Source of the DNA: Cliona cf. orientalis
Taxonomy: Eukaryota > Porifera > Demospongiae > Clionaida > Clionaidae
Direction: 5' to 3'
Length of the DNA stretch: 64,000 bases
Assembly (NCBI GenBank): GCA_963930775.1
Contig: OZ005702.1
Span: 3,038,001 to 3,102,000 of the forward strand
Shown here: positions 17,984 to 46,833 of the stretch, piece by piece
Position numbering within the stretch: position 1 is the first letter of the stretch
Layout of the letters: every line of letters starts with the position of its first letter
Made by a program: the position numbers and the translations under genes
The notes under the pieces: generated by a model
What the model was told of the DNA's origin: nothing
Seen by the model: the letters and a program-made list of their open reading frames with translations, nothing else
Databases searched by the model: none

Positions 17984-20900
17984 ATGGAAAAGGCTATTGC
18001 AAATAGCCTGATTGCTCTCTGTGTTGTGTTTGCTGTAGGCAATCCAACTGCAAATGCTGTCCCAATGACCTCATATCATCAGCAAAGGATCTACATCCAG
18101 CAAGGCAGTGTCCTCGATGATATAACTGAAGCCTTGAGTGTGAGTGAATACCGTATCTCTGTAGCTATGTACATATTGCATTGCAACAATCATTCAGCTG
18201 CAAAATATGATTTTTTTTATTTATACAGGATGCATTAAATGACATACTTACTGAAGCAAAAAATGATATTGTAACGGACTTAAAGTCTGCTTTGTTTGAC
18301 ATTCTGCGTGAACAGATAAACAATTTCGTTTCAGTTGGAGAAATAGACTTTGACGAAAATCACATTCAGTTCACGGCCGATCCATCTTCTAACGTAGACC
18401 TATTTCAGTTGCTCCCGTTCAGCTCTCAACTCCCTTTGCCCAGCATTGCAGTTGATCAAGTGTCATATACATTTGCTACAAGTGAACTGGCTATTTCTAC
18501 TCGTGGCTACGGTTCTCAGACCATCATTCCTGAGGTGCTCAACCTACAAAATGTTGCTCTTTCCATTGATGTCATGCTTCAAAATGTGGACACCCTGGTG
18601 GTAACATTCTCTGGAGAGTTTGTTCTTGGAGGAGCAACTATCCCAGTGGAGGCCGTCTATACTCATGCTTCCAGAGATGTTAGTGTTACAGCTGAAGTGC
18701 CTAGCATTACTATCAACTTCCAGGATGCTGCAAGTGAGCTAGTTGATCTCGATCTTCCAAGAGCTCTGCATGGATCAGTTACTATCCCAGCCTTTGCCAT
18801 TTCTGGAATGGTAACATCATCAGGTGAGAGAAAATTGATCATCAGCGCAACAGGAGGTGATATACATGTCTACATCATCTATAAGAAAACAGACCAGGCA
18901 AGGAAGGCAATAGCAGTTGAAATGTCTAATATTGAACTTGCGTCTGTTCTCAGTGATGTGACTGGACTAGACATTAGTGGTATTCCTTACTTTGGTACTA
19001 CTGTCCTGCCAACCATTGCACTGACATATGCCACGGACAGCATTGATGATCTCCCTGATGATGTTTTTGCCAACAGCCCACTCTTAAGTGGTGTAGGAAG
19101 TAGCATTGAAGAAGATTTCACCGCTTTGATATTATTTGACTTTTCAGATGATCCTATCCGTTTGCGCTACAGTGGTGGACTGCCTTCATTTCAACCAGCA
19201 TCTCCCGGTAGCCTCAGTATCAATAGCCTCATTTCTGCTATTCCCAGTGTTGATCTCGGCAGCATCCCACTTCCACCTGGAGTTAGTGGAGTTCTAGACT
19301 TGAGCATTGATGAATTTGTCCTAAACATTCAAGACAGATCGATTAAAATTGCTGCAAGTTATCCTGGCTCGCTCACATTCTTTGACGGGTTTCTGACAGT
19401 TGACAATCCTATGATAGTTGTTGAAGCGTCCACTCAAGGAGTGACCATAGATGTTGATGGCGACCTAAGCATTTCTGGAAGTGATTTTGATGTGAGTATC
19501 GAACGAGATGAAGCATCGGGAGATTATGTTCTATCGGCTCAAGCTACCGAGTTGCCAATCACAAGCCTTATCAGTCAGTTCCAGAGCGAGGTGCTTCCAT
19601 CTGAACTAAACTCTCTCCTTAGCAGCCTACCATTCTTCAGCTTCTCTATTGAAGATCCCAGTATCTCGTTCCCTCTCTCCTCCTCTCCACTTCAGATTCA
19701 GCTGGGAGGTACTCCAGTTATTAGCGGATACAGCACGGTTCATATGGCCTCGGTGATCATCAGGCAGGGAGGAAAGACTCTCCTCGTACAAGGATTTGAT
19801 CTCGGAGCTGTTAACCTCGCTAGCTTCTTGCAGGGTATCACTGGATTCAACTTTAACACCATTCCTATTCTGAATCAGGATTTGGAAGCGGCAATTTTGA
19901 TTTCCCCAGTGACTCTACCAAACGTGCAGCTAACTGGAGACAAGCTTAGCGGATTCTCTGTCACAAAAGGATTGTCAGTCCAAGCTACCATGCAGTTCCC
20001 ACCCGACTGCTCTGCAGATGCATTCTGTGCTGTGGCTGCATTCCTACTCGGACCAGATGCTCAATTAAACATTCAGGGTACTATTGCTTCAGCTACTGAT
20101 TTCTCTCTCATTGCTGGTGTCTCCAATATCAACTTGGGCAGCGGAATTATCATGTCTGAAGCTGGATTGGAGATCAAAGGAGGGTTGGAGAATAGTGTTG
20201 GAATTTTTGGGGCTATTGATTTGGGTGATCCTGACATCACTCTGACTGGCCGAGTGTTCCTCAGTACCAGTGGTGTCGTCTTGGAGATGACCATGAGTGG
20301 TTGCTGGGAGAATGCCTTTGGTGCCAGCTGGTTGGACATCTGCAGCATTCAGGCTTCCGTGGCCATGATTCCTGGAATCACACTGACTGGTCTTTCTCTT
20401 GGTGCACAAGTCCGTATTGGAGATGATTCTTGTGGTACTCCTCTTACTGCTACTGGCTTTGTGGGTATAGACATTCTTACACCTACAAGGAACTACTACT
20501 ATGTTAACCTTGAGGGATCCGCAACTGTCGGTTCAATATTGGAAGCCTTGTGTATTGACATCAGTATCCCAGCACCACTTGCTGAGAGCGGTTTTCCTAA
20601 TGGATTCCTTTCGTCCTTTTCTCTATTTGGAGTTGAGCTGCCTCATGTGCCCCTCAGTATTCCACAGGGCTACAGATTCAAAGGAACCCTCAACATTCTT
20701 GGCCTAGAAGCATCTGCTGATGTAAACATAGGTTTCCCTGATGGAATCTACTTCGCTGTTGCTCTGCCACCAATAAATGTGGGTGGCCTCCTTCGAATGT
20801 CTGCCTCTCAGTCTGATACGTCTAATGGGCCTTTCCTGACAGCTGACATTGACTTCTTACCAACTCCTAATGTTGACATTCAAGCGAGTGGTTATCTCTC

Positions 20901-21995
20901 TGTTCTTGGCATTTCTCTCGAAACCACCCTGACTATCACAAACACTCAGTTCATATTTAACATACAGGGGAGTTTTCTTGGCTTGTTTGAGGCCTCACTA
21001 CACATCTATGCCTCTTATGGAAGTATTCAAACTGCAGCCTTCCGAGTACAGGGTTCATTCACCAACAACCTCTACAGCACTCTCGAGAATCAGATCAAAA
21101 ATGTGCTCAATGCAGCTGGAGAAGAGGCTACTAAGGCATTTGATGCTGTTCAACGAGAACTAGATAGTGCAAGGAACAGCCTCAACAGTGCACAAGACAC
21201 TTTAGATGCTGCACGTAGAGAAGTGGATTCAGCACAAAGTGCATTTGATGATGCTGTTGACGAGGTAGCAAGTCTAAGGAGAGATGTCGACAGTATTTGC
21301 AGTACACGTAGCTGCAGCTCTGGTAAGTTAAAATGGACATTGATATGCATATACACTCAATAATAGCCGGTAGTAGTCATCCTAAATCAATTGTACCTTT
21401 AATATGCATGCTAACTGTTCTATTTCCAGTCTGCATTGGTTGCCCCGATGGCTTCACTTGCTGTGGCACTGTATGGGGAGTTTGTGTCTGCACTCATCCC
21501 ACCTGGGACAGCTGCTGCACAAGGATACCTGATCCAATCTGTGAAGCGGAGAATGTTGCCTGTCTTGCACTCAAAGAGCCCATCAAGTTAGCACTGAGGG
21601 CAGCTGAGGAAATTGTGGATTCTTCTCGAGTCACACTTGAAGCTGCTAAAGCTGCTCTCGCCATACCAGAAGCAGGTCTCATAGTTGCAGAGGAAGGAGT
21701 AGGTATTGCTGAGAAGGCTGTTGAGGGAGTTGAAGCTGCTTTTGCTGCAGGACTGAAAGCTGCTGAATTCATTGCAAAGCTTGGTCTTAATGGTCTGATC
21801 AGCATCCGAGAGATCAGTTTTGATGTCAGTCTTGGTTCAGCTTCTGGTGGATCATTCTCTGGCTCGGTGACAGCGGTGTTTGGAGGAGCTTCTGAGGTGA
21901 CCATATCCTTCAACATCAACCTCTATGACATCACTTCAATGGTGAAACAGCTGGTTGATGAAATTGGAGATGGACTGTCATCCCTTTTTGGTTAA
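17984..21995 (+). CDS. Gene A: large secreted beta-rich protein with coiled coils and Cys-rich knot
   Basis: Three exons, 17984-18139, 18229-21322 and 21430-21995, give 1271 residues with consistent phases. Exon 1 is a signal peptide (hydrophobic IALCVVFAV, likely cleavage after ANA). Exon 2 (about 1030 residues) is Gly/Ser/Ile/Val-rich and predicted beta. It contains GGTPVISGYSTVHMASVIIR and MTMSGCWENAFGASWLDIC, followed by a coiled coil rich in AQ/DAA heptads (about residues 1000-1075). Exon 3 gives a Cys-rich module (CIGCPDGFTCCGTVWGVCVC, then SCC) that vaguely recalls granulin spacing. A second Ala-rich helix and a beta segment (NGLISIREISFDVSLGS) follow. There is no transmembrane segment, so it is probably secreted and possibly oligomeric. 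I do not recognise a named family. The ATG at 17984 is chosen because the in-frame GTG at 17972 is not a plausible start. Confidence 0.93.
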
Positions 21996-24770
21996 GAATT
22001 GAACAAATTGTATCAAAAATTGCAAGCTTAGTGCTATACATGCATGTAGCATCTAGGTGTATTATATGCATGTGTTATAGAGTTTACATAGCTAGCTACA
22101 GCCACAACATTAGGTTTAGAAATGTAGTCGTATATTTCCTTCTGAATGCTTAGAGATATACATCACACAAACACTTGTTCAGCATAACAAAATTAATGTA
22201 ATACAGTGGAACATACCTCATGCCCCATGCATGGGCCAAAAATCAGTGGAAAAGAGGAGTACAGGTAAATTTTAGATGCCAATAACTCTGTATGTTGGCC
22301 CAGGATATTATATAGCTCGAATGAGCAACCTACACCTTGAGCCTGAGCACTAGTCTCGTGCCCAGCCTCTTTATAGCACGCCGATAAGAGTCCATAATAG
22401 TACTATAATAATAGCACCTTGCTATTAGATAGTTATAATATTATGGTCTTAGAACTGAGGTCGTGCTATTTTGCTATTTAATAAAGTTTTGTAGTTAGTG
22501 TTAGGAGGTGTACTAGTTTGCTATTTTGCTACCTTTAAGTTAGTTAATCTTAGGAGGCGTGCTATTTTGCTATTTTGCTACATAGCTATTTTAGTTAGTC
22601 TTAGAATTTTACTGCCACTTTGTGTCAATAGGAGGTAACTAAGTAGCTTAGTTCCTTGTAGGTTTTACTTAGTTACTTGTAAAATTAATGTTACTTGTAA
22701 ATTTGGCCAATAGGATCCATGATATTATGAGAGCTTCAAGGCAAATAGCTGTACTACTATAGCAACAGTTGTAAAACTCTAAATATTAAACTTAGCTCAC
22801 CTCGGCCAATGGGATCCACAGTATTTAGCATCCCTCTGTCCCCTTAGTAACACCCTCACTACACTTGGGTGTCACAGCTCAGGGCCATCGGGATGCTAAA
22901 TCACTGTAGATCCCTTGTCTTCAGTGTCTAACTATTATTTAGAAGCTGTGCTATTTTGCTATTTTAGTTAGTCTTAGAAGCCGTGCTATTTGCTATTAAG
23001 TTTGTGCTATTTTGCTACTTTCAATAGCAAAATAGCAACAATACTAGCAAAATAGCAACAATACTATTGTTGCTATTTTGCTATTAGGTAATAACTAGAT
23101 GGTTTTGTTGCTATTTTGCTGTTGAAAGTAGCAAAATAGCATAAAATAGCAAATAGCATGGCTTCTAAGACTAACTAAAATAGCAAAATAGCACTGAGCA
23201 AAATAGCACACTAGATAGGCGAAATGGTATCAATAGCAAAATAGCAATAATAGTATAATAGCAGCAAAACCTAACATGGGTGCATACCCGGGAGTGGGAG
23301 CTGACTTGCAAATTATTATATTGTACTATGATGCCACAAACCAGATATTTGGGAGTGCTTTCCACAATACTATATATAGGGTGTATTTTATGGAACTTGA
23401 GTTATATCCCTGGTAAGCGTCCATGCGCGCAGCAAGTATAGGTGCCCATGGGCACTCATCCAGACACTATGGTATATACTCAGGGTACAACTTGACATCC
23501 ATACACCTTAGAAAACCATATAGCAACATAAGTTTCAACCCCAATTTGTGGGATAGTTAGAGGTGGTAGAGGGTCATTAGTATGTTAGCAGGTCAATAGT
23601 GACTGCTACCAAAATACATAGTTAGATGTTGGTTTCGTAATTCTGCTCATGGCTTGCCACTTCATAGAGTATGCAAAATCAATGAGTTCAAACAAAATGC
23701 TGTCACAATTAAGGTTGAATTGGCTGATCATGAACAGATGTTGAGTCCGGGCCAAGGCTAATGAGTCGAAAGGAGACTTGAATACAACCATTGAACATAA
23801 TTTTCCCAAGGAACCAGCCTGTGCATGTACACACTCATATATGGCAACAGTCCCACTGCAGAGGAGCTCTATGAAGCCTGCCCTATATATACTCTCTGCT
23901 CTATACCTATTCAGACGCCATCATTAATTTTAGCAAAAGTGGACTGAACAAATTTTCCCATGATCCATCCTAAGCACACATCCAAGCAACCATCCAATTA
24001 GAGGAGTTTTGTAAAGTTATGTCATTAAGGTTACGGGTACCGGGTGACAGTTTGCATCTGGAAATTTTCGCGAGTAACAAGCTATTTGTATCTCCACAAG
24101 GGAAGCAGCTATGAAGCTGAAATAAAAACGAAATTATAGCTAACATGATGATAGAGACAGCTGTCTCAACATTGGACCTTCCCGTCGTGAAAGTCAGGCA
24201 ATGGCCGCCATTGTCACGAACTCTTGCGTCAAGTTTTACCTAGACAGAGGAGTCTAGTCTACTATCTACAGCTTATTTATGAAGTACTTAACTTACTCCA
24301 GTGCTGGAGTTGGTTCCCAAGTTCATAGAGCCTCCACAAAGGGAAAGCTACACAAAAGAAGGTAATTTACGCCAAGCGTAATGGCGGACCAGGTCCGGCG
24401 TCAACACGGCTGTCTAGCTGCTTTCTGACAGGTGGCCTTCAAATTTACACCAACTCCAGCTCTGCCCACATGTCTGAGTAATAAGATAAACACTTCCTTA
24501 CGGTCAAAAGAGAAGCCATCTACACTAAACTTGACGCAGAGTTTTCATTTGCGGTTCGCCTTGGTATGCTCCATTACTCACTATGGGAAATGCCCGTGCG
24601 TGGGCGAACTGTCACCCGTAACCTTTATAGCTACCCTCCACTCTCCTATTCAGATGCTATCATATTCAGCAAATTGAAGTTCGCTTGATGGGTGGTTATA
24701 ATTGGCACTAGGGGCCACCAGGTACATAAATTGAACTGTAAGCATTGACTGGTGCTACCCTTATTCCCAT
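21996..24770. other. Intergenic region between gene A and the giant element
   Basis: No supported gene. It contains the GCTATTTTGCTATTT repeat field (22420-23260). Short ORFs near 23171, 23606 and 24432 lack coding features. Confidence 0.5.
22420..23260. repeat. GCTATTTTGCTATT repeat field with inverted copies
   Basis: The unit TGCTATTTTGCTATT, often followed by AGTTAGTCTTAGAAG, recurs many times. From about 23020 it also appears in inverted form (AATAGCAAAATAGCA), so long hairpins can form. It is not a regular tandem array. Confidence 0.7.
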
Positions 24771-24775
24771 GCACC
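24771..24775. repeat. Left target site duplication GCACC
   Basis: GCACC abuts the left terminal inverted repeat and is repeated directly after the right one at 38892-38896. Confidence 0.75.
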
Positions 24776-24811
24776 TGTAGTGTCGTGGTTAGTGAACGTC
24801 GCCGTTAGTGA
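24776..24811 (+). repeat. Left terminal inverted repeat of the giant element
   Basis: 36 bp, identical to the reverse complement of 38856-38891. It contains GGTTAGTGAAC and a second GTTAGTGA, echoing the array monomer motif GGTTAGTGGAAAC. Confidence 0.9.
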
Positions 24812-24994
24812 AATGACAATTATGCGCATGCGCACGTGCGGCCAACGCGGGTGCAATATTAACCCTATTAAAACTCCAAAGTCCGTATGTACGCGCTAGC
24901 AACCCGAATTCCCTGCGAGGGCGTGGTCTGGGGACTATACCAGTATCGCCGAGTATCGCGCCTATGTTTCTGAGTAAATCTAAGGATGGGCGCC

Positions 24995-25001
24995 TATAAA
25001 A
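24995..25001 (+). promoter_or_regulatory. TATA-like box at the left end of the giant element
   Basis: TATAAAAGG facing the array, about 220 bp inside the left end. It could drive rightward transcription through the satellite, but no coding exon follows it directly. Confidence 0.35.
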
Positions 25002-25204
25002 GGCTCAGCTCAGAGTAAGCGTACTACCCCCAGGTTAGTCTCGAACTCAGACTCTGAGCGTGGGTTCGAGGCTACCCCCTGATAGGCCCTGCATGCATGA
25101 AGTTTTTGTATAACTGTAATGCATAATCATTAATGCATAGCAGCAATAGTTACTCATCCGGCTCAAACGTATACAGATTAGGTGGTCAACTATCAAGTTC
25201 CCTA

Positions 25205-28200
25205 TAAGCCATTTATTGATGTTCACTAACTGCAGCAGCTTCAACAAAGGGGCTGTGGTTATATTAGTGGAAACATTGATGAGACAAGCATAATCAGATG
25301 CAATGCTCGCTAGATAGGTGGTCGGCTATACATTATACATTTTAATGTTCACTAACATAGGCGTAGGAACCATGGGGGCTCCGGGGGCTGGTGCCCCCCT
25401 ATGTTTCTGATAGTTACATAGCTAGGCTCAATTTTATACACACTGATCATAGTCCCCTTGCGTATAGATCTATAGAGCCCCCCTTTACCAAACCATCTTC
25501 CTACGCCTCTGACTAACTGCAGCAGCTTCAACGAAGGGGCTGTGGTTATTGGAAACATTTACGAGACAAGTATATTCATATGCAATGCTCATCAGGTCAA
25601 TTGCATATATTAGATTAGGTGGTCACCTATGCACTATGAGCCATTTTGTTGATGTTCACTAACTGCGGCAGCTTCAACGAAGGGGCTGTGGTTAGTGGAA
25701 ACATTGACGAGACAAGTATATTCATATGCAATGCTCATCAGGTCAATTGCATATATTAGATTAGGTGGTCACCTATGCACTATGAGCCATTTTGTTGATG
25801 TTCACTAACTGCGGCAGCTTCAACGAAGGGGCTGTGGTTAGTGGAAACATTGACGAGACAAGTATAAGCAGATGCAATGCTAATCAGGTCAATAGCATAC
25901 AGATTAGATTAGGTGGTCACCTATGCACTATGAGCCATTTTGTTGATGTTCACTAACTGCGGCAGCTTCAACGAAGGGGCTGTGGTTAGTGGAAACATTG
26001 ATGAGACAAGTATAAGCAGATGCAATGCTCATCAGGTCAATAGCATACAGATTAGGTGGTCACCTATGCACTATGAGCCATTTTGTTGATGTTCACTAAC
26101 TGCGGCAGCTTCAACGAAGGGGCTGTGGTTAGTGGAAACATTGACGAGACAAGTATAAGCAGATGCAATGCTCATCAGGTCAATAGCATACAGATTAGGT
26201 GGTCACCTATGCACTATGAGCCATTTTGTTGATGCTCACTAACTGCGGCAGCTTCAACGAAGGGGCTGTGATTAGTGGAAACATTGACTAGACAAGTATA
26301 AGCAGATGCAATGCTCATCAGGTCAATTGCATACAGATTAGGTGGTCACCTATGCACTATGAGCCATTATAATATTATTGATGAGCACTAACTGCGGCAG
26401 CTTCAACGAAGGGGCTGTGGTTAGTGGAAACATTAACGAGACAAGTATAAGCAGATGCAATGCTCATCAGGTCAATAGCATACAGATTAGATTAGGTGGT
26501 CACCTATGCACTATGAGCCATTTTGTTGATGTTCACTAACTGCGGCAGCTTCAACGAAGGGGCTGTGGTTAGTGGAAACATTGACGAGACAAGTATAAGC
26601 AGATGCAATGCTCATCAGGTCAATAGCATACAGATTAGGTGGTCACCTATGCACTATGAGCCATTTTGTTGATGTTCACTAACTGCGGCAGCTTCAACGA
26701 AGGGGCTGTGATTAGTGGAAACATTGACTAGACAAGTATAAGCAGATGCAATGCTCATCAGGTCAATAGCATACAGATTAGGTGGTCACCTATGCACTAT
26801 GAGCCATTTTGTTGATGTTCACTAACTGCGGCAGCTTCAACAAAGGGGCTGTGATTAGTGGAAACATTGACTAGACAAGTATAAGCAGATGCAATGCTCA
26901 TCAGGTCAATTGCATACAGATTAGGTGGTCACCTATGCACTATGAGCCATTATAATATTTATGAGCACTAACTGCGGCAGCTTCAACGAAGGGGCTGTGG
27001 TTAGTGGAAACATTGACGAGACAAGTATAAGCAGATGCAATGCTCATCAGGTCAATTGCATGTAGATTAGATGGTCACCTATGCACTATGAGCCATTTTG
27101 TTGATGTTCACGAACTGCGGCAGCTTCAACGAAGGGGCTGTGGTTAGTGGAAACATTGATGAGACAAGTATAATCAGATGCAATACTCATCAGGCTCAAA
27201 TGCATACAGATTAGGTGGTCAACTATGCACTATGAGTCATTAACTTATTGATGTTCACTAACTGCGGCAGCTTCAACGAAGGGGCTGTGGTTAGTGGAAA
27301 CACTGATGAGACAAGTATAATCAGATGCAATGCTCATCAGGTTCAATGGCATACAGATTAGGTGGTCACCTATGCACTATGAGCCATTTCATTGATGTTC
27401 ACTAACTGCGGCAGCTTCAACGAAGGGGCTGTGGTTAGTGGAAACACTGATGAATCAAGCATAATCAGATGCAGTACTCATTAGATGCAAAGTTGTAACT
27501 GATTAGGTGGTCAGCTATGCATTATGAGCCATTTTATTGACGTTCACTAACTGCAACAGCTTTATTGAAGGGGCCGTGGTTAGTGGAAACACTGATGAGA
27601 CAAGCATAACTAGATGCAGCACTCATTGGATGCAAAAGTTGTAACAGATTAGGTGATCAGCTATGCAAAATGAGCCATTTCATTGATGTTCACTAACTGC
27701 CGCAGCTTCAACGAAGGGGCTGTGGTTAGTGGAAACACTGATGAGACAAGCATAATCAGATGCAGTACTCACTACTATTAGGTCCAAAGTTGTAACAGAT
27801 TAGCTAGGTGGCCAGCTATACAGTATGAGCCATTAATTTTTATTGATGTTCACTAACTGCGCCAGCTTCAACGAAGGGGCTGTGGTTAGTGGAAACACTG
27901 ATGAGACAAGCATAATCAGATGCAGTACTCACTACTATTAGGTCCAAAGTTGTAACAGATTAGCTAGGTGGCCAGCTATACAGTATGAGCCATTAATTTT
28001 TATTGATGTTCACTAACTGCGCCAGCTTCAACGAAGGGGCTGTGGTTAGTGGAAACACTGATGAGACAAGCATAATCAGATGCAGTACTCACTACTAGTA
28101 GGTCCAAAGTTGTAACAGATTAGCTAGGTGGCCAGCTATGCAGTATGAGCCATTAATTTTTATTGATGTTCACTAACTGCGGCAGCTTCAACGAAGGGGC

Positions 28201-28830
28201 TGTGGTTAGTGGAACACTGATGAGACAAGTATAATCAGATGCAATGCTCATCAGGTTCAATGGCATACAGATTAGGTGGTCACCTACGCACTATGAGCCA
28301 TTTCATTGATGTTCACTAACTGCGGCAGCTTCAACGAAGGGGCTGTGGTTAGTGGAAACACTGATGAGTCAAGCATAATCAGATGCAGTACTCACTAGAT
28401 GCAAAGTTGTAACAGATTAGGTGGTCAGCTATGCATTATGAGACATTTTATTGATGTTCACTAACTGCAACAGCTTTATTGAAGGGGCCGTGGTTAGTGG
28501 AAACACTGATGAGACAAGCATAACTAGATGCAGCACTCATTGGATGCAAAAGTTGTAACAGATTAGGTGGTCAGCTATGCAAAATGAGCCATATTATTAT
28601 TGATGTTCACTAACTGCCGCAGCTTCAACGAAGGGGCTGTGGTTAGTGGAAACACTGATGAGACAAGCATAATCAGATGCAGTACTCACTACTAGTAGGT
28701 CCAAAGTTGTAACAGATTAGCTAGGTGGCCAGCTATACAGTATGAGCCATTAATTTTTATTGATGTTCACTTAATGCCGCAGCTTCAACGAAGGGGCCGT
28801 GGTTAGTGGAAACACTGATAGATTCCTAGC
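25205..28830 (+). repeat. Left satellite array, about 24 monomers of about 145 bp
   Basis: Each monomer has a strongly conserved core of about 50 bp starting GTTCACTAAC and ending GGTTAGTGGAAAC, with GCAGCTTCAACGAAGGGGC between. The core's outer parts are themselves inverted (GTT..CACTAAC versus GTTAGTG..AAC). Variable spacers of about 95-110 bp follow. Two sub-families differ in the spacer (ATGCTCATCAGGTCAAT versus ACTCACTACTATTAGGTCC), the latter with units of about 160 bp near 27700-28180. Confidence 0.93.
25357..25511. mobile_element. 155-bp MITE nested in a satellite monomer
   Basis: Sequence with inverted ends (AGGCGTAGGAA and TTCCTACGCCT) interrupts the core of one monomer. The satellite motif ACTAAC is duplicated on both sides (25351-25356 and 25512-25517), consistent with a 6-bp target duplication. 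Confidence 0.8.
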
Positions 28831-29542
28831 ATCAGAACGATTGATTTTGACCAAAAATAGTATAGTTACATCCCCAGTATAAATTTACCTTTTTGCGGTT
28901 ATTAGGTAATTATGTTGTAATTATGATGTAACCTATGTCGTCATAGCGCTAAAATTCAGAGCCTTTACAGAACACTTCTGAGACCTGAAAATCCACAGAA
29001 TCATATATTAACTTACATACATATCCAGCGAATACATTAAAAGCTGAGTGCTACTTTCTCCGACAAGTAATGCCGGCCGAACTTCACGCGTTCTCTTGGC
29101 TGACGTAATCCTGTGGATAAATAAAGCTAGCCTTGCGCTATTTATAGCACGCGGTCATGCCACGACCGATCTGAAGTTCGGAAGCTGTACTGTGCTGTCG
29201 AATTCATCTCCTTTGATTGAAGCATCGAAACTCGAAGTCGAAAGTTGATCTTAGACTCCATCTCTGCGATTGAGGTCCCGGCATCGAGGTGTGTATTGAC
29301 GACCTTTACCACATGCACCATTAGAACTATCCAGCCACTGGGGATGTGGTCAAGGGTTCATATTATTATTATCATAGCTAACAAACTTGAAAATAAACGT
29401 CCAAAAAATTAATAATAATAATGTGTGATCAATAATAATATTATTCTGCATTAAGTATAACTATGCTTTCTCTAAAATATGCGTGTATAATAATGAGGTA
29501 ATAGAAAAATAATCTTTATACAAAAATAAACAATTTTGCAGC
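28831..29542. other. Unique segment between left array and protease gene
   Basis: No supported coding exon. The part around 29040-29330 is more GC-rich than the rest of the element. It would hold the 3' UTR of the minus-strand gene ending at 29543; no canonical AATAAA was seen close to the stop. Confidence 0.45.
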
Positions 29543-32500
29543 CTAGGACTCTAATATAGGATACTTCTTCTGTTCATGGCAAGTAATAGCATCTTCGTAT
29601 CTAATGTTATACTTCTTCATTAATAAACTTATCATTGCCTATATTCACAACAACAGTATTAAAAGATTAGTATAGGAAGCATTATGATTAAAATTACCTC
29701 ATTAAAAAGCACATCCTCTGCCATTTTTATCCCAAATACCACCCTCCCTGGAAGATGGAGTTGTGCCAGTCCACGAAAATAGTGAGTAACTTCTATGACC
29801 TATAATGTAATGATGGAATTTATTCAGATTGGAATTTAAGTATTATAATTTTATTAGTACCATATCTGGTAAACAACAGTCCAGTGGCCATTTGTTGATT
29901 AATACATCCTTTACTTTATGGCGTCCTCTATTGTGCTCAATTAGCCTTTGATAGTAAAAGGATTGAACTTGACGATCTTCATCTTTCATAAGGGCAATCC
30001 ATTTGGACTATAATTAAGGAATTTACAAAGAATGCTAGATTTTAAACGATGTGCAATACCTCTGATTCCTTAATGGTTTTGCGTACAAATGTCCTCTGAA
30101 ATGGAGTTTCACTACAAAAGTTTAAATACGAATTCTGTATGATTATAATACAGTAACTACGTAGTGAATTTTACAACTACTAATGATACATACTCACAAA
30201 CATTGCATTGGTAAGTCAAAGTACCTAACTCACCCTGATGCATATTATTATCATGATAATATCATGCAGACTCCAACAAAGCTACCATTCTCTCTGAGGT
30301 ACATCCAGAATTCTTGCTCCTCTATAATATGTTGTACTAAATATAGCAATCCATGCATTGCTCTGTCTGCTCTCTTTGCTTGACATAATATTGCAATTAT
30401 TGTATCCAATAGCATATTAAGGCATAATTTATCCAATCTTCTAAAATTAATGCTGAATGAGCTACAAAGCTGGCAGATTTTATTAATACTAATAATTATT
30501 ACATAAAGCCCTATAACCTGCAAGTTAGTTGATGGTGCATGTTCATTGACAACTAAATTTTGTATAGAGATTAACTTATTCACATAATTATCGTATAATA
30601 TTATAACATTGAAGTCTAACCTGTCATTTGGAATATTTTTTATGCTCCAAGCTAATTTAATTCCTTCGGCTTTCCATGCTTCTTCTGTGATACCAAAACT
30701 ATAAATGTCCTCACATTGAGCACCTCTGCTCGAAAACTCAGGGAATAATTCAAATGGGGATTTTATGTCGTCAGAACCATATTCTTCCTCTTCTGGTATT
30801 ATAGCAAACATTTGAATATTCAGTTCCAGCTATATACTAGCAATATTTTGTGTACCTGAATCACTACAAGGTTCACTAATTGCACCAATGTTGTCAATGG
30901 CCAGCTGATTTATCTTAAGCTCGGGTAGATCATCACTATCATAAAAGTTAATATATTATTATAGTGATATATATAACAAGTGAGAGGTATTACTGCGTAA
31001 TATGTACTGTACTTGACCTAGTAGTTATTAATAGTAGACTGTGTGCATGCATCATAAATCGATTCAATGCAAGGCAGCTTACCAATTAAGGAGTATACGA
31101 ATGACCCGCTCTCTTAAGTTAATTACTGATGTCTACATAATCAATAGAATATGATATATAAATCTTAGCATTAATAAAATAAATACCTTCAAGACAGGTT
31201 GCCTCTTGCGGATGACGCACTCCATGAACTATTGATTAAGATTCAGAATCTAATTAATAAACTTAGTCTAATCATTGGATAAGAATACCTTCCAAATCAG
31301 AATTCCGCTGTCATCGGGTTTAAAACAGCTTTTGTCCCACTGTATAACAAGAATTACACACAGTAATACTTTTAGAATACATATACATGAACACCTTTGT
31401 GAAGGTTAATTTCCAAATTGGTCCATCTGGAGGACACTTTTCACTGTTTGGATCAAATGCAAGTTACAATATAAATGCTGTAAAAAATTTTAATGTTGAT
31501 TAATCCTCACACAAAATTATGACTATTGTAGCAGTTGCTGTGGTATCAACTGCTACTTTAATATCTTGTATGAAGATCACATGACAGTTATGAGCAGAAC
31601 CATACCATAAACTGTTGATGGAGCATCTTAGACTACTACTTGAAGGAGCTTGAGATAGTGGCTGGAATAATTCCAAGCGTTTCACCTTTTTGTATGCCAC
31701 CTGCATTAGCTGGCTGTAATACTCAGCAACTATCACATGCATGAACCATGACTTACCAAGAGATGCCAAATTGAAGAGTGGTTGAGTGGGAAAAATTTTA
31801 TGTCAAAATCATCTGTTAAAAGCTGAATGTATGCAAAAACAGATTAACGATTAATTTCAAGTGCACATTCAAGACAGATTGTGAATTATAGTTATGTACC
31901 TCTGAATTAATCTTGGAAATATCTACCTCTGAACCTGATTCATTGTTTAACCACACTATCTGGATGATTGGATCCTGTATCTTGCAAATGATACCTCTTC
32001 TGTACTTCAACTTTATTAAGATTGATAGAAACTGCAGTGTCTATGAGTCCAAAATATTTGGAGATTGATATCGCGATAGACAACGTATTTAATTTATGGT
32101 AATAATATTTATACCCGGTGATCTAAATCCTTAATTCTGGCTATGTCCCTGAGTCCTCCAGCACTTAATTCATAACCCTTCTCTGGATAGCTCAGTAAAG
32201 TTTCTGTGCAATAGATCATTAAATTTTGAATACACAGAATTACTTACCATCTTCCTTAATTGTTGCTAGACACAGTCCCAGATCCCTTTCGATATCTGAA
32301 CTCACATAATAAATATTAGTGTTACAGTTGTGGATACAATTACCAGATGCTAGCTTTGGTTCATTGTGGTCTATATCAGGTGCTGTGATTCTGCTACCAT
32401 ATATCTCACGTGCCTTCAACACAACTGATGTATAATTTTCATAATTGATTTCGTAGTGATCAAGACTAAATGGACTGTTTGCATTATAAATTAACTGGAT

Positions 32501-33676
32501 TGCATTTAAAGATGATCTGATTCAGTATTATATACCTTGTTAGCACAAAATTTGCCAACCATGAACGAAGTACAATCGTGTCACCCTACATAATAATTAT
32601 GGCTCTGAATAACTTCTCAGCTAGCATACAAACCATAGCTTACATCAAATATGAGAGGGTTATTCTTTACTACACACTCTGCAATCTTTATTTTATGCAT
32701 AGAAATATTTAAAGTATATGTACATCAATTATTAAACTTGCCTTGCATACAAATATACCACAGTCAACTTGGTTCTTTTGACAAGTAAAATCCTAAGCAG
32801 GATCCCCCAGGTAAAGAATACACTATGTTATCATCATTTACTTACCGTAGCTCCAACAATTTTCCAGTGCTTTGATGAATATTTGGCTTCTTGAGGAAGC
32901 TTGAACTGGAATAAGCATTCCACAAATTTTCTGGGGCGAAATTCAAACAGTATAATAATACAATAGAATAACAGTGACAATTATTATAATACCTTAAATT
33001 TTCACATACACTTGTATGGATAGCACCACAACTCAGTGAATCATAACATATTACGGTGGAGGATTCGAAGTTCAAAACCTGATTGTAATATTCTGCATGC
33101 AATGCTTGTATGGGTATATGCAATTATGATATCCATACACAAAGGATCCAGTGGGTATCTTTGATATTCACAGGAATTAATAGTAGAGTCAGATCATGTG
33201 GATCATCCTACCATATTATATCAGTGATTCAATTGAATAATTAATCTCATTCTTGATAATAATATTATTCTTACAATCTTTATCCAATTGCATGGATGAC
33301 TTCGCTTGTTTGCATAGCATGAAGGATTGCTCAGATTTCGCATCCAGGCAGTGTAAAAGTGAGTAGAAATGGCCAATATCGAGGTATTACCCTGCAGAAT
33401 ACATGAAAATTCACTGTAACAGTCCAATTAAGAAAGATATTGCTCCTAGTACCTCCTTTTGTTTCTCTGACCATAATAGTTCCATCATGAAAGATATCAA
33501 CTATATTATATCAAAGTTTGTGAACTATGAATCAACTGGATTCTTACCACCACATTATATATTGATATATAATACCTCATCATCCACTTCATCATGTGCA
33601 AGCAGTCTGTTCATGCTGTTAATTTTCAGAGTCACGTTGTTGACTTTAGTAATCCATTCTGGAACTGAATTGCTTT
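29543..33676 (-). CDS. Ulp1/SENP-like (C48) protease gene of the giant element, 5' end unresolved
   Basis: At least 24 exons run from 33676 to a TAG at 29545-29543: 33676-33576, 33500-33453, 33391-33275, 33207-33139, 33078-32993, 32930-32846, 32792-32742, 32685-32644, 32585-32536, 32516-32248, 32203-32115, 32031-31900, 31700-31606, 31443-31395, 31339-31289, 31228-31187, 31132-31083, 30935-30856, 30792-30621, 30440 to about 30278, 30095-30060, 30007-29861, 29799-29698 and 29638-29543. All phases agree, giving about 740 residues. The first nine exons form a C48 domain: NRLLAHDEVDDE, LLLIPVNIKDTHWILC (catalytic His), VICYDSL (Asp) and CQKNQVDCGIFVCK (Gln and Cys). C48 enzymes cleave SUMO-like modifiers. 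The remaining roughly 490 residues (for example KYRRGIICKIQDPIIQIVWL and FYYQRLIEHNRGRHKVKDVL) are unrecognised; no DDE triad is evident. Exon 7 uses a GC donor (AAG/GCAAGT). The start codon was not found. Confidence 0.85.
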
Positions 33677-33919
33677 CTGCATAGATTCACTAGGCTAATT
33701 GTATATCATTCCAGCCACAGAGGCTGGTTGAGCATGCATGTCCACAAAATTTACTCAGTGATCCTTAAAATTTAGGTTGCGGACATGGTATAATGCGTAC
33801 TATAATATTATGCTCTTAGACTAACTTTCCTCTCTAATAATGAGTAGAGCAAACTACCATAATTATTCATAATATTTTCAAACCGTTATTATGATTGTAG
33901 GAAATATGGAGATTAATTT
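33677..33919. other. Unique segment between the protease gene and right array
   Basis: Upstream exon(s) and the promoter of the protease gene should lie here or beyond the right array. No convincing initiator exon or TATA box was found. Confidence 0.4.
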
Positions 33920-36900
33920 TGTCATAAAATGGCTCATAATGCATAGCTGCCCACCTAATCTGTTGCCACTTTGCATCTAGTGAGTACTACATCTAATTAT
34001 GTTGGTCTCATCAGTGTTTTCACTAACCACAGCCCCCTCGTTGAAGCTGCAGCAGTTAGTGAACATCAATAAAATGGCTCATAATGCATAGCTGATCACA
34101 TAATCTGTTACAACTTTGCATCTAGTGCGTACTGCATATAATTATGCTTGTCTCATCAGTGTTTCCACTAACCACAGCCCCCTCGTTGAAGCTGCGGCAG
34201 TTAGTGAACATCAATAAAATGGCTCATAATGCATAGCTGACCACATAATCTGTTACAACTTTGCATCTAGTGAGTACTAAATCTAATTATGTTGGTCTCA
34301 TCAGTGTTTCCACTAACCACAGCCCCCTCGTTGAAGCTGCGGCAGTTAGTGAACATCAATAAAATGTCTCATAATGCATAGCTGACCACCTAATCTGTTA
34401 CAACTTTGCATCTAGTGCGTACTGCATCTAATTATGCTTGTCTCATCAGTGTTTCCACTAACCACAGCCCCCTCGTTGAAGCTGCGGCAGTTAGTGAACA
34501 TCAATGAAATGGCTCATAATGCATAGCTGACAACCTAATCTGTTACAATTTTACATCTAGTGAGTACTGCGTCTAAATAATAATATTATACTTGTCTCAT
34601 CAGTGTTTCCACTAACCACAGCCCCTTTGTTGAAGCTGCGGCAGTTAGTGAACATCAATAAAATGGCTCACAATGCATAGCTGACCACCTAATCTGTTAC
34701 CACTTTGCATCTAGTGAGTACTGCATCTAATTTTGCTTGTCTCATCAATGTTTCCACTAACCACAGCCCCTTCGTTGAAGCTGCGGCAGTTAGTGACCAC
34801 CTAATCTGTTACAACTTTGCATCTAGTGCGTACTGCATCTAATTATGCTTGTCTCATCAGTGTTTCCACTAACCACAGCCCCCTCGTTGAAGCTGCGGCA
34901 GTTAGTGAACATCAATGAAATGGCTCATAATGCATAGCTGACAACCTAATCTGTTACAATTTTACATCTAGTGAGTACTGCGTCTAAATAATAATATTAT
35001 ACTTGTCTCATCAGTGTTTCCACTAACCACAGCCCCTTTGTTGAAGCTGCGGCAGTTAGTGAACATCAATAAAATGGCTCATAATGTATAGCTGACAACC
35101 TAATCTGTTACAACTTTGCATCTAGTGAGTAGTGCATCCGATTATATTTGTCTTATCAGTGTTTCCACTAACCACAGCCCCCTCGTTGAAGCTGCAGCAG
35201 TTAGTGAACATCAATAAAATGTCTCATAATGCATAGCTGACCACCTATTCTGTTACAATTTTGCATCTAGTGAGTTCTGCATCGGATTATACTTGTCTTA
35301 TCAGTGTTCCCACTAACCACAGCCCCTTCATTGAAGCTGCGGCAGTTAGTGAACATCAACAAAATGTCTGATAATGTATAGCTGCCAACCTAATCTGTTA
35401 CAACTTTGCATCTAGTGAATACTGCATCCAATTATGCTTGTCTCATCAGTGTTTCCACTAACCACAGCCCCTTCGTTGAAGCTGCGGCAGTTAGTGAACA
35501 TCAACAAAATGGCTCATAATGCATAGCTGCCCACATAATCTGTTGCCACTTTGCATCTAGTGAGTACTGCATCTAATTTTGCTTGTCTCATCAGTGTTTC
35601 CACTAACCACAGCCCCCTCGTTGAAGCTGCGGCAGTTAGTGAACATCAACAAAATGGCTCATAATGCATAGCTGCCCACCTAATCTGTTACAACTTTGCA
35701 TCTAGTGAATACTGCATCTAATTATGCTTGTCTTATCCCCACCTAATCTGTTGCCACTTTCGTTGAAGCTGCGGCAGTTAGTGAACATCAACAAAATGGC
35801 TCATAATGCATAGCTGCCCACCTAATCTGTTGCCACTTTTGCATCTAGTGAATACTGCATCCAATTATGCTTGTCTCATCAGTGTTTCCACTAACCACAG
35901 CCCCCTCGTTGAAGCTGCGGCAGTTAGTGAACATCAATAAAATGTCTGATAATGCATAGCTGACCACCTAATCTGTTACAACTTTGAATCTAGTGAATAC
36001 TGCATCCAATTATGCTTGTCTCATCAGTGTTTCCACTAACCACAGCCCCTTCGTTGAAGCTGCGGCAGTTAGTGAACATCAATGAAATGGCTCATAATGC
36101 ATAGCTGACAACCTAATCTGTTACAATTTTACATCTAGTGAGTACTGCGTCTAAATAATAATATTATGCTTGTCTCATCAGTGTTTCCACTAACCACAGC
36201 CCCTTTGTTGAAGCTGCGGCAGTTAGTGAACATCAATAAAATGGCTCATAATGTATAGCTGACCACCTATTCTGTTACAATTTTGCATCTAGTGAGTTCT
36301 GCATCGGATTATACCTGTCTTATCAGTGTTCCCACTAACCACAGCCCCTTCATTGAAGCTGCGGCAGTTAGTGAACATCAACAAAATGTCTGATAATGTA
36401 TAGCTGCCAACCTAATCTGTTACAACTTTGCATCTAGTGAATACTGCATCCAATTATGCTTGTCTCATCAGTGTTTCCACTAACCACAGCCCCTTCGTTG
36501 AAGCTGCGGCAGTTAGTGAACATCAACAAAATGGCTCATAATGCATAGCTGCCCACCTAATCTGTTGCCACTTTGCATCTAGTGAGTACTGCATCTAATT
36601 TTGCTTGTCTCATCAGTGTTTCCACTAACCACAGCCCCCTCGATGAAGCTGCGGCAGTTAGTGAACATCAACAAAATGGCTCATATTGCATATATAGCTG
36701 CCCACCTAATCTGTTACAACTTTGCATCTAGTGAATACTGCATCCAATTATGCTTGTCTCATCAGTGTTTCCACTAACCACAGCCCCTTCGTTGAAGCTG
36801 TGGCAGTTAGTGAACATCAACAAAATGGCTCATAATGCATAGCTGCCCACCTAATCTGTTGCCACTTTGCATCTAGTGAGTACTGCATCGAATTTTGCTT

Positions 36901-37962
36901 GTCTCATCAGTGTTTCCACTAACCACAGCCCCCTCGTTGAAGCTGCGGCAGTTAGTGAACATCAACAAAATGGCTCATAATGCATAGCTGCCCACCTAAT
37001 CTGTTGCCACTTTGCATCTAGTGAGTACTGCATCTAATTTTGCTTGTCTCATCAGTGTTTCCACTAACCACAGCCCCTTCGTTGAAGCTGCGGCAGTTAG
37101 TGAACATCAACAAAATGGCTCATAATGCATAGCTGCCCACCTAATCTGTTGCCACTTTCGTTGAAGCTGCGGCAGTTAGTGAACATCAACAAAATGGCTC
37201 ATAATGCATAGCTGCCCACCTAATCTGTTGCCACTTTTGCATCTAGTGAATACTGCATCCAATTATGCTTGTCTCATCAGTGTTTTCCACTAACCACAGC
37301 CCCTTCGTTGAAGCTGCGGCAGTTAGTGAACATCAACAAAATGGCTCATAATGCATAGCTGCCCACCTAATCTGTTGCCACTTTGCATCTAGTGAGTACT
37401 GCATCTAATTATGTTTGTCTCATCAGTGTTTCCACTAACCACAGACCCTCGTTGAAGCTGCGGCAGTTAGTGAACATCAATAAAATGTCTCATAATGCAT
37501 AGCTGACAACCTAGCCTCTGTTACAATTTTACATCTAGTGAGTACTGCGTCTAAATAATAATAATATACTTGTCTCATCAGTGTTTCCACTAACCACAGC
37601 CCCTTCGTTGAAGCTGCGGCAGTTAGTGAACATCAATAAAATGGCTCATAATGCATAGCTGACCACCTAATCTGTTACAACTTTGCATCTAGTGAGTAGT
37701 GCATCCGATTATACTTGTCTTATCAGTGTTTCCACTAACCACAGCCCCTTCTTTGAAGCTGCGGCAGTTAGTGAACATCAATAAAATGCCTGATAATGCA
37801 TAGCTGACCACCTAATCTGTTACATCCTTGCACCTAGTGAGTATTGCATCTGATTATGCTTGTCTCATCAGTGTTTCCACTAACCATAGCCCCTTCGTCG
37901 AAGCTGCGGCAGTTAGTGAACATCAATAAAATGTATAGCTGACCACCTAATCTGTTATGCCT
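33920..37962 (-). repeat. Right satellite array, inverted, about 28 monomers
   Basis: Same satellite as the left array in reverse orientation (GTTTCCACTAACCACAGCCCC, then TTGAAGCTGCGGCAGTTAGTGAAC). Several monomers are truncated at the same spot (35750-35770 and 37150-37165). Multi-monomer blocks recur, for example a spacer with GCGTCTAAATAATAATATTA near 34568, 34981, 36147 and 37547, showing higher-order amplification. Confidence 0.93.
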
Positions 37963-38855
37963 AATAATTATTTACAGATACTTTCAATGGTGGAGTGTTA
38001 TATGCATCTATTAAATTTATGCGACAGACAGCTGTTAGTAAAGTGTGATAAAGCCATAATGTGTATACTGGCAGAATTCTGTAGCTTACTAACAGTTACT
38101 AATGTGTATGAATATTATTATTAATAGATGACCGCTAAGCTAGTGAAGATAATAATTATTGTTCAACTTTTTTAATATGGCTGTTATAATATTATTATCA
38201 ATATTGCACTGGAATAGTTTCATATCCCTCCACTAATTAATCACACTCCCTCTCCAACATTAATTTTCATAGCTGACTGCCTATTGTAATGAATATTAAG
38301 CATTCATCCAGGACTTATTAATGCCAGATATCGATTCTATGCAACAATAATAATTAGCTATCATAATTATAATAGCTATGAATGCACATAATGATAATAA
38401 TATCACTTTGCAGGTATTAAGCCCTTCCTCTACACTCTCCCGATAACACATTCTTCTTGGAACTCAGCTGTACTTGTGACTAGCTCTGGTGGATTAATCC
38501 TGTAGCTATATGACAGCAAAATATAGCGGTAAAAATACATTCAATCAAAAACTATCCACGTTCATCCTAGGCCTACTCAGAGAATCGGAGGACTGCGCGT
38601 GCTGGGCAGTATCTAGCTAGAACGATGGCCACATGTAGTGTACTTCATTTCATACTTCCTGGCCCCCTTGTCCTTGTTTGTTTCAGCGGTAGACCTGACT
38701 TATTAGTCTAGCGTGCCAGCCCCATACAGGCAAAGCGTAGCAGGATCAGACTCTTTAGTTCTCAGCGAGCACGCGCACGCAGGAAGCACACTTACGCGTT
38801 TTAAACTTCCCGCCTGATGGCGAGCAGCGGCCCGCTCTTGTCATTATTCATTAGC
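37963..38855. other. Right unique end of the giant element
   Basis: No supported gene. A diverged copy of the GTGCCAGCCCC hairpin family is near 38704-38740. GC content rises sharply in the last 150 bp, as at the left end. Confidence 0.45.
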
Positions 38856-38891
38856 TCACTAACGGCGACGTTCACTAACCACGACACTACA
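38856..38891 (-). repeat. Right terminal inverted repeat of the giant element
   Basis: Exact inverse of 24776-24811 over 36 bp, ending CACTACA. Confidence 0.9.
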
Positions 38892-38896
38892 GCACC
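38892..38896. repeat. Right target site duplication GCACC
   Basis: Direct repeat of 24771-24775, immediately outside the right terminal repeat. Confidence 0.75.
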
Positions 38897-44556: not shown

Positions 44557-44666
44557 TACTAGCGCTACGAATGCGCCCCCCAAAGCCCTTCGTTTTCGGT
44601 GCTGGCAGGGCTGTTTTATCTGTAGGTAAAGTGGGAAATGGAGAGATCTGGGGGCGTTGCGGTTAA

Positions 44667-45668
44667 GGTACCATTTAATTGCGTGGGCGTGAGCGTCAGG
44701 AATGGCTAATTCAATTAGCGAATCGTGAAGGGGCGTGGCCGAAGAGGCCATACGAGTGCTTTTGGTCGAAGGTGGGCGTGTCCAGAATCGGCCAGGGATG
44801 ATTATGCGCGTGTAATTAGCGACCGGAAGTGGCCCCTGAAGAAAAGGCCGGTAATTGCCCACATCAAAGCAAGATCAAAGCATTCTTTCTTAACTATTAA
44901 CCGCAACGACTTAAAAAAAAAAAAAGCTTATTAGGCCTAATTAAGCATGTGGGCGTGTTCCTGGCGCTGTGTGGAGTGTGTGCGTGTGCGTTAATGCAGG
45001 TTTTATTGCTTCCGATTGGGCGTGGCTTCACGGGCCAGTGCTTGGACATCGGCGCCTGGGACTTGGCCTCGGCGATAGGTGGGCGTGTCCCGGAAGCGGT
45101 GGTGACCTTTGAACCCCGCGAGGAGGCTTTGGGGGCGTGGCAGGAGGTCAAAGGTGAGGCCATGTCCGTTAATGAGGCACTGTACGGCGGTGCGATCGAG
45201 GGGCCCGTACGGCTGGACGGAAGCTGACGATGGTTTGAAGCGGATGTGGTTGCGATGACGTGTTGTTGCCCCGCCCACACAGGAAATGAGGTGAGCTCTT
45301 GCGTGGGCGGTGTGGCAGAACGGCCTCCAAGTGTTTGTGTGTGTTTTGGCCTTGAGGAAGCTGTGTGTTTTAATTGGGATTGATTGTGGGCTTCCGGTGG
45401 ACATCCGGTGGTTAGTAGGCACTTGATTGAGAATGGTGGTCCTTGGGGAACAGGGTGGGGCTGTTTTGGGCGTGGCCTGGCCCCTCCCTTCCGGCTCGGC
45501 TTCCGGTCCATGGAGGATATTAAATGAACACTTCCGGCTCTAGCAGCCACACCCCTGAGACCTGTGCAATTAAAAGGGCGTGGTTACACAACATGCACCT
45601 CACTAATGACTTTGATGTGGTTTAGGTGTCATATCCCCCACCTCACGCCCACGCAATTAAATGGTACC
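44667..45668. mobile_element. Nested element with TTAA target duplication (1002 bp)
   Basis: The perfect inverted ends start GGTACCATTTAATTGCGTGG and are flanked by TTAA (44663-44666 and 45669-45672). The opposite foldback arm near 46313 has a single TTAA, the empty site. TTAA duplication is typical of piggyBac and Kolobok superfamilies. The interior is GC-rich with many GGGCGTGG motifs and overlapping ORFs in several frames (for example 44897-45550 minus) that look non-coding. Confidence 0.85.
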
Positions 45669-46833
45669 TTAAATGGGTGTGGTGTTTCGATCCCTACCAC
45701 TTGCGTTTTGCGTTTTATGGCCCGGATATGGTCCACATATTGCATGTAGCAGATGAGATGAGATTCGGTGAACCCTTGCCATCTGGCTGGGAGCACTATA
45801 CTTCTGTCTATTGATAGCGATGTCTAACCAACATTGAAACCTTAGAAATGCACTCACTCACATCTCACAGAATCGAAAATTTCTGCAGATCATTTTGGTG
45901 AAAGTTTCATCTCCATATCTTCTTCTTGAGTGAAGTTATGATGCAAAGTTTACAATGAAATCTCCGGGAATTTTATCACGGAACACCAACAGCAGGGACT
46001 CCTATAAAGAATTGACAAGGCCAGTTATGAGACTTCAACACATACTTCACATCATAACTTCACTCAGGAACAAGATATAAAGATGAAACTTTCACCAAAA
46101 TGATCTGCAGAAATTTTCGGTTCTGTGAGATGCAAGAGTGAAATGTATTTCTAAGGTTTCAATGTTGGTTTGACATCGCTTTCAATAGACAGAACTTGAG
46201 TACTCCCAGCCAGATGGCAATGGTTCACTGAATCTCATTTCATCCACTACATGCAATGTGTGGACCATATCCCATAAAACGCAAGTGGTAGGGATCGCAA
46301 GGTCACACCCATTTAACCACAATGCCCCCAGAGCTCTCCATTTCTCACTTACCTGCAGATAAAACAGCCCTACCAGCACCAGAAACGAAGGGCTTTGCTG
46401 GTACACAGGAGCACATTTGCAGCGCTAGTACCTAGGCTAGCTGCTGGTTTAATTAGAATAAATGTGTGTTGCGCCGTCCCATGACCATGCCCACTTCAAT
46501 CTCGGATCGGTGGCAAATCGTGCAATTCTCCCGCAAAGGAAGCACTAAGGACGGGAATTGGGGTGCGGTTGATTAAGTACCGGTGAGCTCTTGATGCACC
46601 GGTTGTAATTTGTCCGAAATTCAGAGGTCGAATTTTCACTTTGCGGACCCTAGAGCCTAGTATCAATTGAAACCGACTGGGATCTTACCCTCATTGACAA
46701 TTGAAACTTATCACCATGTAGACAATGATGTGAACCATATACATAGCTATAATTAATGGTAGGGATAATTAGCTACTTGTGTCTATGGGTGACTGGAACA
46801 CTGCATGACAAAGATTGGAATACTGCATGACGA

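Follow-up and report, generated by a model that had tools for sequence, protein, structure and literature searches.

How could a segment of about 14 kb with perfect inverted ends and a duplicated target have moved within a genome, when no recognised transposase lies between those ends? This question is raised by an element at positions 24776-38891 of a 64,000-nucleotide stretch (the window, C14:3038001-3102000, whose numbering is used throughout) of the 217-Mb genome of the sponge Cliona cf. orientalis. The element very probably belongs to a family of non-autonomous, foldback-like DNA transposons that rely on a transposase supplied in trans, perhaps of integrase type. It was inserted as a unit bounded by its 36-bp ends, with duplication of 5 bp of the target.

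Structure of the element

The two terminal inverted repeats (TIRs) match at 36 of 36 bases (TGTAGTG...CACTACA), the end type of the family being TGTAGTGTCGTGG, and GCACC stands immediately outside both of them as an exact 5-bp target-site duplication, in agreement with the preliminary description of the locus. A scan of the window for inverted repeats gives 37 bp instead, as the C and G of the flanking GCACC copies pair by chance. Comparison of the left end with phages gave no match. Two oppositely oriented tandem arrays flank a core of 5.1 kb, as listed below.

24771..24775, left target-site duplication GCACC
24776..24811, plus strand, left 36-bp TIR, in which GTTAGTGA occurs as two direct copies at a spacing of 16 bases
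24812..25152, plus strand, left subterminal region, common to other copies
25153..25356, plus strand, outlying array units
25512..28820, plus strand, left tandem array with a unit of ~143 bp
28821..33923, core between the arrays; window 29400-33900 is near-identical in C6:5616547-5621048 and C13:2938362-2942863
28867..29360, repeat of ~494 bp in the window copy, absent from C6a and C1c
29846..33686, minus strand, multi-exon gene encoding a Ulp1/Peptidase_C48 domain, with approximate exon limits
32742..33391, minus strand, exons yielding the Peptidase_C48 match, with HW (33142-33153), CYDS (33037-33048) and QVDCG (32757-32771) in order
33924..37960, minus strand, right tandem array with a unit of ~145 bp, inverted relative to the left array
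37961..38855, right subterminal region, common to other copies
38856..38891, minus strand, right 36-bp TIR
38892..38896, right target-site duplication GCACC

The ~494-bp repeat is nested in the window core, and related sequence occurs at the place where the copy C6a is inserted and also upstream of the copy C5 (copies are listed below). The left subterminal region of C6a holds ~1 kb that is not in the window copy (L033 558-1579), with a poly-A-like run at one end; judged by eye, it looks like the 3' end of a long interspersed nuclear element (LINE).

Copies and unoccupied sites in the genome

The preliminary description proposed a genome-wide search for further 36-bp ends with 5-bp duplications and for empty sites, and regarded the absence of any other copy of the ends as decisive against it. 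At up to 3 mismatches, 24 matches to the 36-bp end were found, 19 of them exact, and a reversed-pattern control gave 0, so that chance is excluded. The exact ends all start with TGTAG, and the other five with TGTGG, TATAG, TCAAG and, in two cases, TGTAG followed by inner changes; a search confined to the inner 27 bp of the TIR, again allowing 3 mismatches, gave 25 matches, one beyond the list of 24. Seven facing pairs were formed by these ends, the window copy included, and the copies span 2.4-16.2 kb in length.

C1a, C1:1889231-1897253
C1b, C1:10069098-10071490, without target duplication
C2a, C2:14487059-14498297
C4, C4:6500291-6509242
C5, C5:8225537-8238009
C6a, C6:5611398-5627627, CGGGG/CGGGC
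Window copy, C14, window 24776-38891, GCACC

Exact 5-bp duplications border five of the seven pairs (TAAGC, ACATG, TATGG, GCTTG and GCACC), and the two copies flanking C6a agree at four of five bases. The joined flanks of the window copy were searched in the whole genome, and those of all six duplication-bearing copies against the retrieved copy loci and the window. Related unoccupied sites with a single target copy were observed for four of the six: C4 is inserted in a 44-bp tandem repeat whose adjacent units on either side carry TATGG once; the joined flanks of C2a aligned at 200 of 200 positions with 97.5% identity beside C1a; those of C6a matched at 94.5% upstream of C5; and those of C5 matched at 85.8% downstream of C6a, with a contiguous junction and an 11-base gap after it. 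For C1a, no match spanning the joined junction was found among the retrieved copy loci and the window. Inverted ends, a target duplication of fixed length and unoccupied sites with a single target are the marks of a cut-and-paste TIR transposon, and all three were found here, with excision as the presumed step between them.

In the ends compared, the TIR varies less than the sequence next to it. Among right ends (n = 9), 0 of 36 columns were variable in the TIR versus 124 of the next 264 (p = 1.3e-9), and among left ends (n = 11) 1 of 36 versus 53 of 264 (p = 0.009), in a comparison of ends recruited by their TIR that omitted C1d, C4x, C11x and C14x. Over 4563 bases, 17 substitutions and 5 indels separate the core of the window copy from that of C6a. 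The cores of C2a and C5 share 99.9% identity across 1632 bases and 99.4% across 924, and the two copies bear different duplications. With so little divergence the copies are recent and the family recently mobile.

Inverted arrays and their motif

The mirrored arrays described earlier are present at 25512-28820 (period ~143) and 33924-37960 (period ~145). Among 16 left and 7 right units of 120-170 bases, units of other lengths having been dropped, likeness was 86% left to left, 94% right to right and 80% left to right. The motif GTTAGTG occurs 99 times inside the element (49 forward, 50 reverse) against 8 times (6 and 2) in the 49.9 kb of the window outside it; each 36-bp end carries it twice, as direct copies 16 bases apart, and most array units carry one per orientation. 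The array unit gave 557 genomic matches in 39 candidate regions, and an independent genomic satellite was rejected as its nature, as all but C6:6202350 among the ~150 matches listed lie in or near mapped copies. These mapped copies include C11:4035-4046 kb, a stretch with no match to the 36-bp end within 3 mismatches, and with the 295-bp right end as query a related end that lacks the TIR portion was found at C11:4034369.

In C4 and C1a the core has the opposite orientation to that in C5, C2a and C6b, and the copies also differ in what their cores contain, as would be expected if inverted arrays recombined. Long inverted tandem-repeat arms around a variable middle are the structure of a foldback element, and these foldback-like arms are the most informative feature of the family.

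The Ulp1 protease gene of the core

A single clear gene is present in the core, as the preliminary description had it, on the minus strand from ~33686 to 29846 and with short introns; of the nine introns drawn, five are GT-AG, one is GC-AG and three have uncertain limits. Its spliced exon peptides match Peptidase_C48 (Ulp1, PF02902) at E=1.4e-17 and 64.7 bits against a cut-off of 20.7, the HW, CYDS and QVDCG motifs following in that order, and none of the remaining scanned peptides of the gene reached the Pfam cut-off. A simple gene-finding script returned a partial model of this gene only. The protein database yielded a single weak match for the Ulp1 peptides (30% identity over 30% of the query) and, for the 192-amino-acid exon, one ENA protein with 99% identity. 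This exon is intact only in the window, C13 and C6 cores; its AlphaFold model, with a mean predicted local distance difference test score of 39.7, was uninformative and was not used.

The core is kept at no less than 99% identity in the window, C13:2938362-2942863 and C6:5616547-5621048, decayed partial relatives lie at C14:5984526 (85%) and C1:10565991 (70%), and other matches are short or at the core edges. In C6a an extra ~1.6 kb adjoins the Ulp1 gene and is homologous to the cores of C5, C2a, C4, C1a, C6b and C1d, so that the window copy lacks part of the fuller core.

Search for a transposase

Frames of at least 110 amino acids in 20 stretches were read by eye and selected ones passed through Pfam. 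No integrase with H2C2, DDE core and GPY/F motif was present in the window core frames so examined, a full six-frame domain scan not being part of the search, and neither Mutator-type nor H2C2-DDE genes were seen in the copy frames examined. The earlier statement that the element has no recognised transposase thus stands for these frames, which are not every frame, and the full-length relatives with an integrase or DDE protein that it suggested seeking were not found in this incomplete scan.

A degraded C-terminal piece of an integrase is present in the cores of C5, C2a, C6b and C1d and, more decayed, in C6a; its strand is opposite to that of the C6a Ulp1 gene. The piece gave 117 matches, the best outside the family being open frames at 40-51% identity, many of them longer than 1,400 amino acids; of the two Pfam-verified Gypsy frames, L049 matched it at only 27% and L045, a partial frame of 660 amino acids, gave no match. 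The piece was set aside as the transposase of the family because its closest outside matches are these long Gypsy-sized frames. We lean, without claiming proof, towards a captured Gypsy remnant, judging from sequence similarity and with the Gypsy label of the long frames taken from their length. Intact Gypsy frames in the C13a and C4x stretches are taken to be insertions in their own right.

Integrase exons (H2C2, weak rve) were also observed at several host loci (L053-L060) and are here called Ginger-like, a label of this analysis for integrase exons without reverse transcriptase seen in 3-kb stretches. Such loci lie, for example, at C6:3433219, C9:5468374, C10:8282650 and C19:4038985. H2C2 exceeded the cut-off in L048, L056 and L058, and rve was found below cut-off only, in L048 and L054; a Ulp1 domain in L056, likely by eye, was not confirmed by Pfam. 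Three further candidates or neighbours were considered beyond unpaired ends. At C3, Ginger-like H2C2 and partial rve come after a left end with its array; a right end being absent at up to 3 mismatches, C3 was rejected as an autonomous copy and is read as a chimeric or nested locus; the C3 piece as query gave 92 genome matches, many in long Gypsy-sized frames. Beyond C2b, LINE frames were seen, and the CxC5 cysteine cluster of KDZ transposases occurs in L043 8981-9631 (C2:8364931-8365581, E=4.6e-8). This KDZ-type gene was not accepted as a family gene, as it lies 6.6 kb past the truncated C2b array and the following 9.9 kb showed neither an array nor a right end. Beyond C1c, a fibronectin-type frame was recognised by eye.

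Proposed mobilisation of the family and alternative explanations

In the favoured explanation, a DDE-type transposase supplied in trans would bind GTTAGTGA in the ends and probably also in the arrays, excise the element and insert it at a target cut with a stagger of 5 bp. Flipping and deletion of the core would result when the inverted arrays recombine, and the Ulp1 protease gene would have an accessory role or be a passenger. For the transposase class our first guess, more apt to be wrong than right, is an integrase-type (Ginger-like) enzyme. Of the two possibilities raised in the preliminary description, a large derivative mobilised in trans fits best, and a new or very divergent transposon group was not demonstrated, no transposase having been found.

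Several observations weigh against this explanation. No transposase could be assigned to the family from the selected frames (short exons may escape a search short of six frames), which leaves the class of the enzyme a guess; the pair C1b has no duplication; the window copy has only its self-match as joined flanks in the whole genome, and hence no unoccupied site; 7 of 36 TIR columns are variable over all 24 ends, and the conservation test carries the selection of ends given with it. Ten of the 24 ends are also unpaired, namely C1c, C2b, C3, C6b, C13a, C13b, C1d, C4x, C11x and C14x, located in part as follows.

C1c, C1:36195758
C2b, C2:8356151
C6b, C6:5886458
C13a, C13:2972034
C13b, C13:3157937
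C1d, C1:11052095
C4x, C4:9573825

The strongest competitor, possible though doubtful, is a divergent Ginger-type element whose ancestral integrase-like transposase carried a Ulp1 domain and whose integrase part was lost or decayed in the surviving copies. The Ginger lead of the preliminary description holds for the TGTAG ends, which fit TGTNR, for the Ulp1 gene and for the Ginger-like integrase exons elsewhere in the genome, one of which borders the C3 copy, and the degraded integrase piece in sister cores may be added to it. The lead fails at the target, the duplications being of 5 bp rather than 4-bp CCGG/CCGT. Moreover, the integrase piece is on the opposite strand to Ulp1 and has 24-33% identity to Ginger-like loci, over alignments of at least 70 residues, versus 40-51% to the long frames, and tblastx at E 0.01 found no similarity of eight Ginger-like loci to the window core, the extra part of C6a or the core of C5.

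It is rather unlikely that the family represents an undescribed TIR lineage with TGT...ACA ends, 5-bp duplications and arms that are arrays of transposase-binding sites, its transposase being the Ulp1-bearing core protein, whose catalytic domain would then have escaped recognition, or else some integrase-type enzyme. Still less probable is that the Ulp1-bearing core gene is itself the transposase, with a catalytic domain too divergent for recognition and with the window, C6a and C13 copies autonomous: it is the only clear core gene, it is kept at high identity in those three copies and most of its exons match no known family, but the protease domain alone is recognised, C5 and C2a, which are without the gene, are as similar to each other as the gene-bearing copies are, and differences between the window and C6a genes are too few for a test of selection, to which the uninformative exon model adds nothing. 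An assembly artefact of mirrored satellite arrays hardly comes into question: long similar arrays are prone to mis-assembly and many ends are unpaired, but independent 5-bp duplications and single-target unoccupied sites occur at unrelated places, the listed array-unit matches lie with one exception in or near mapped copies, and the wrong joining feared in the preliminary description is ruled out as one mis-join, the array-core-array layout being seen again on several contigs.

The family combines retrovirus-like ends and 5-bp duplications with foldback-style arrays and with a Ulp1 gene, three features that are separate in the literature compared. Its near-identical copies, which occupy different sites and hold the core in one orientation or the other, offer a handle on array growth and flipping within a transposon and on whether the array motifs act as transposase sites, and identification of the transposase would reveal an enzyme class able to move foldback elements of up to 16 kb.

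Other features of the window

No Rfam match was found anywhere in the window. A unit of ~1 kb at 44663-45672 has 31-bp inverted ends beginning and ending with TTAA (TTAAGGTACC...GGTACCTTAA) and a frame of 217 amino acids, and resembles a small transposon that targets TTAA. Further perfect inverted repeats of 22-39 bp were observed at 45688-46297, where they are nested, and at 22948-23194. Long frames of 1023 and 1128 amino acids at 18292-21363 and 48621-52007 match no Pfam family at E<=0.001.

Comparison with known systems

A keyword search of open-licence papers (Ginger, foldback, sponge and Ulp1 transposons) yielded no recognised description of the element, which speaks only weakly for novelty. 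Duplications of the Mutator type are about 8-10 bp long, and Kaonashi is a Mutator-like element that carries ULP. Mutator-like elements can carry ULP genes according to PMC2836005, and the present family resembles them as a transposon with a Ulp1-like gene.

PMC2836005 describes Ginger1 as ~2.6-7 kb long, with ends of the form TGTNR, TIRs of 40-270 bp, CCGG/CCGT targets of 4 bp, a full integrase and Ulp1 or OTU domains; the TGTNR ends and the possible Ulp1 domain are shared with the present family, whereas its duplications are of 5 bp and varied and its copies are 2.4-16.2 kb long. In Ginger1 the Ulp1 or OTU domain is at the C-terminus of the transposase, and in the family gene Ulp1 is not joined to an integrase. 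Membership in Ginger1 fails because of the duplications GCACC, TAAGC, ACATG, TATGG, GCTTG and CGGGG/CGGGC. Animal Ginger2 shows 4-bp duplications and RTATAY targets, and TDD-4/5 show 5-bp duplications (PMC2836005); the TGTNR ends are like those of both, the 5-bp length fits TDD only, and one of six targets is AT-rich (TATGG within GTATATGG). PMC10045372 gives duplication lengths of 4 bp for Ginger1, 4 or 5 bp for Ginger2 and 6 bp for Polinton; the family, with 5 bp, differs from Polinton/Maverick, no profile search for polymerase genes forming part of this comparison (PMC10045372).

Tetris of Drosophila virilis (PMC4079207) is an apparently non-autonomous foldback element with ~220-bp arm repeats, 8-10-bp duplications and no apparent protein-coding capacity; the present family is likewise apparently non-autonomous, with long inverted tandem-repeat arms, a variable middle and rearranged copies, and differs in its ~145-bp units, its 5-bp duplications and its Ulp1 gene. 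Galileo, of the P superfamily in Drosophila, has long, internally repetitive inverted arms too, and PMC3688188 reports that its arm repeats hold further THAP-domain binding sites; transposase-binding sites in the arms of the present family are presumed, and the P-type transposase with a THAP domain that Galileo has was not found in the family frames examined (PMC3688188). The family behaves most like Tetris and Galileo, its ends are most like those of Ginger, and it is placed in neither.

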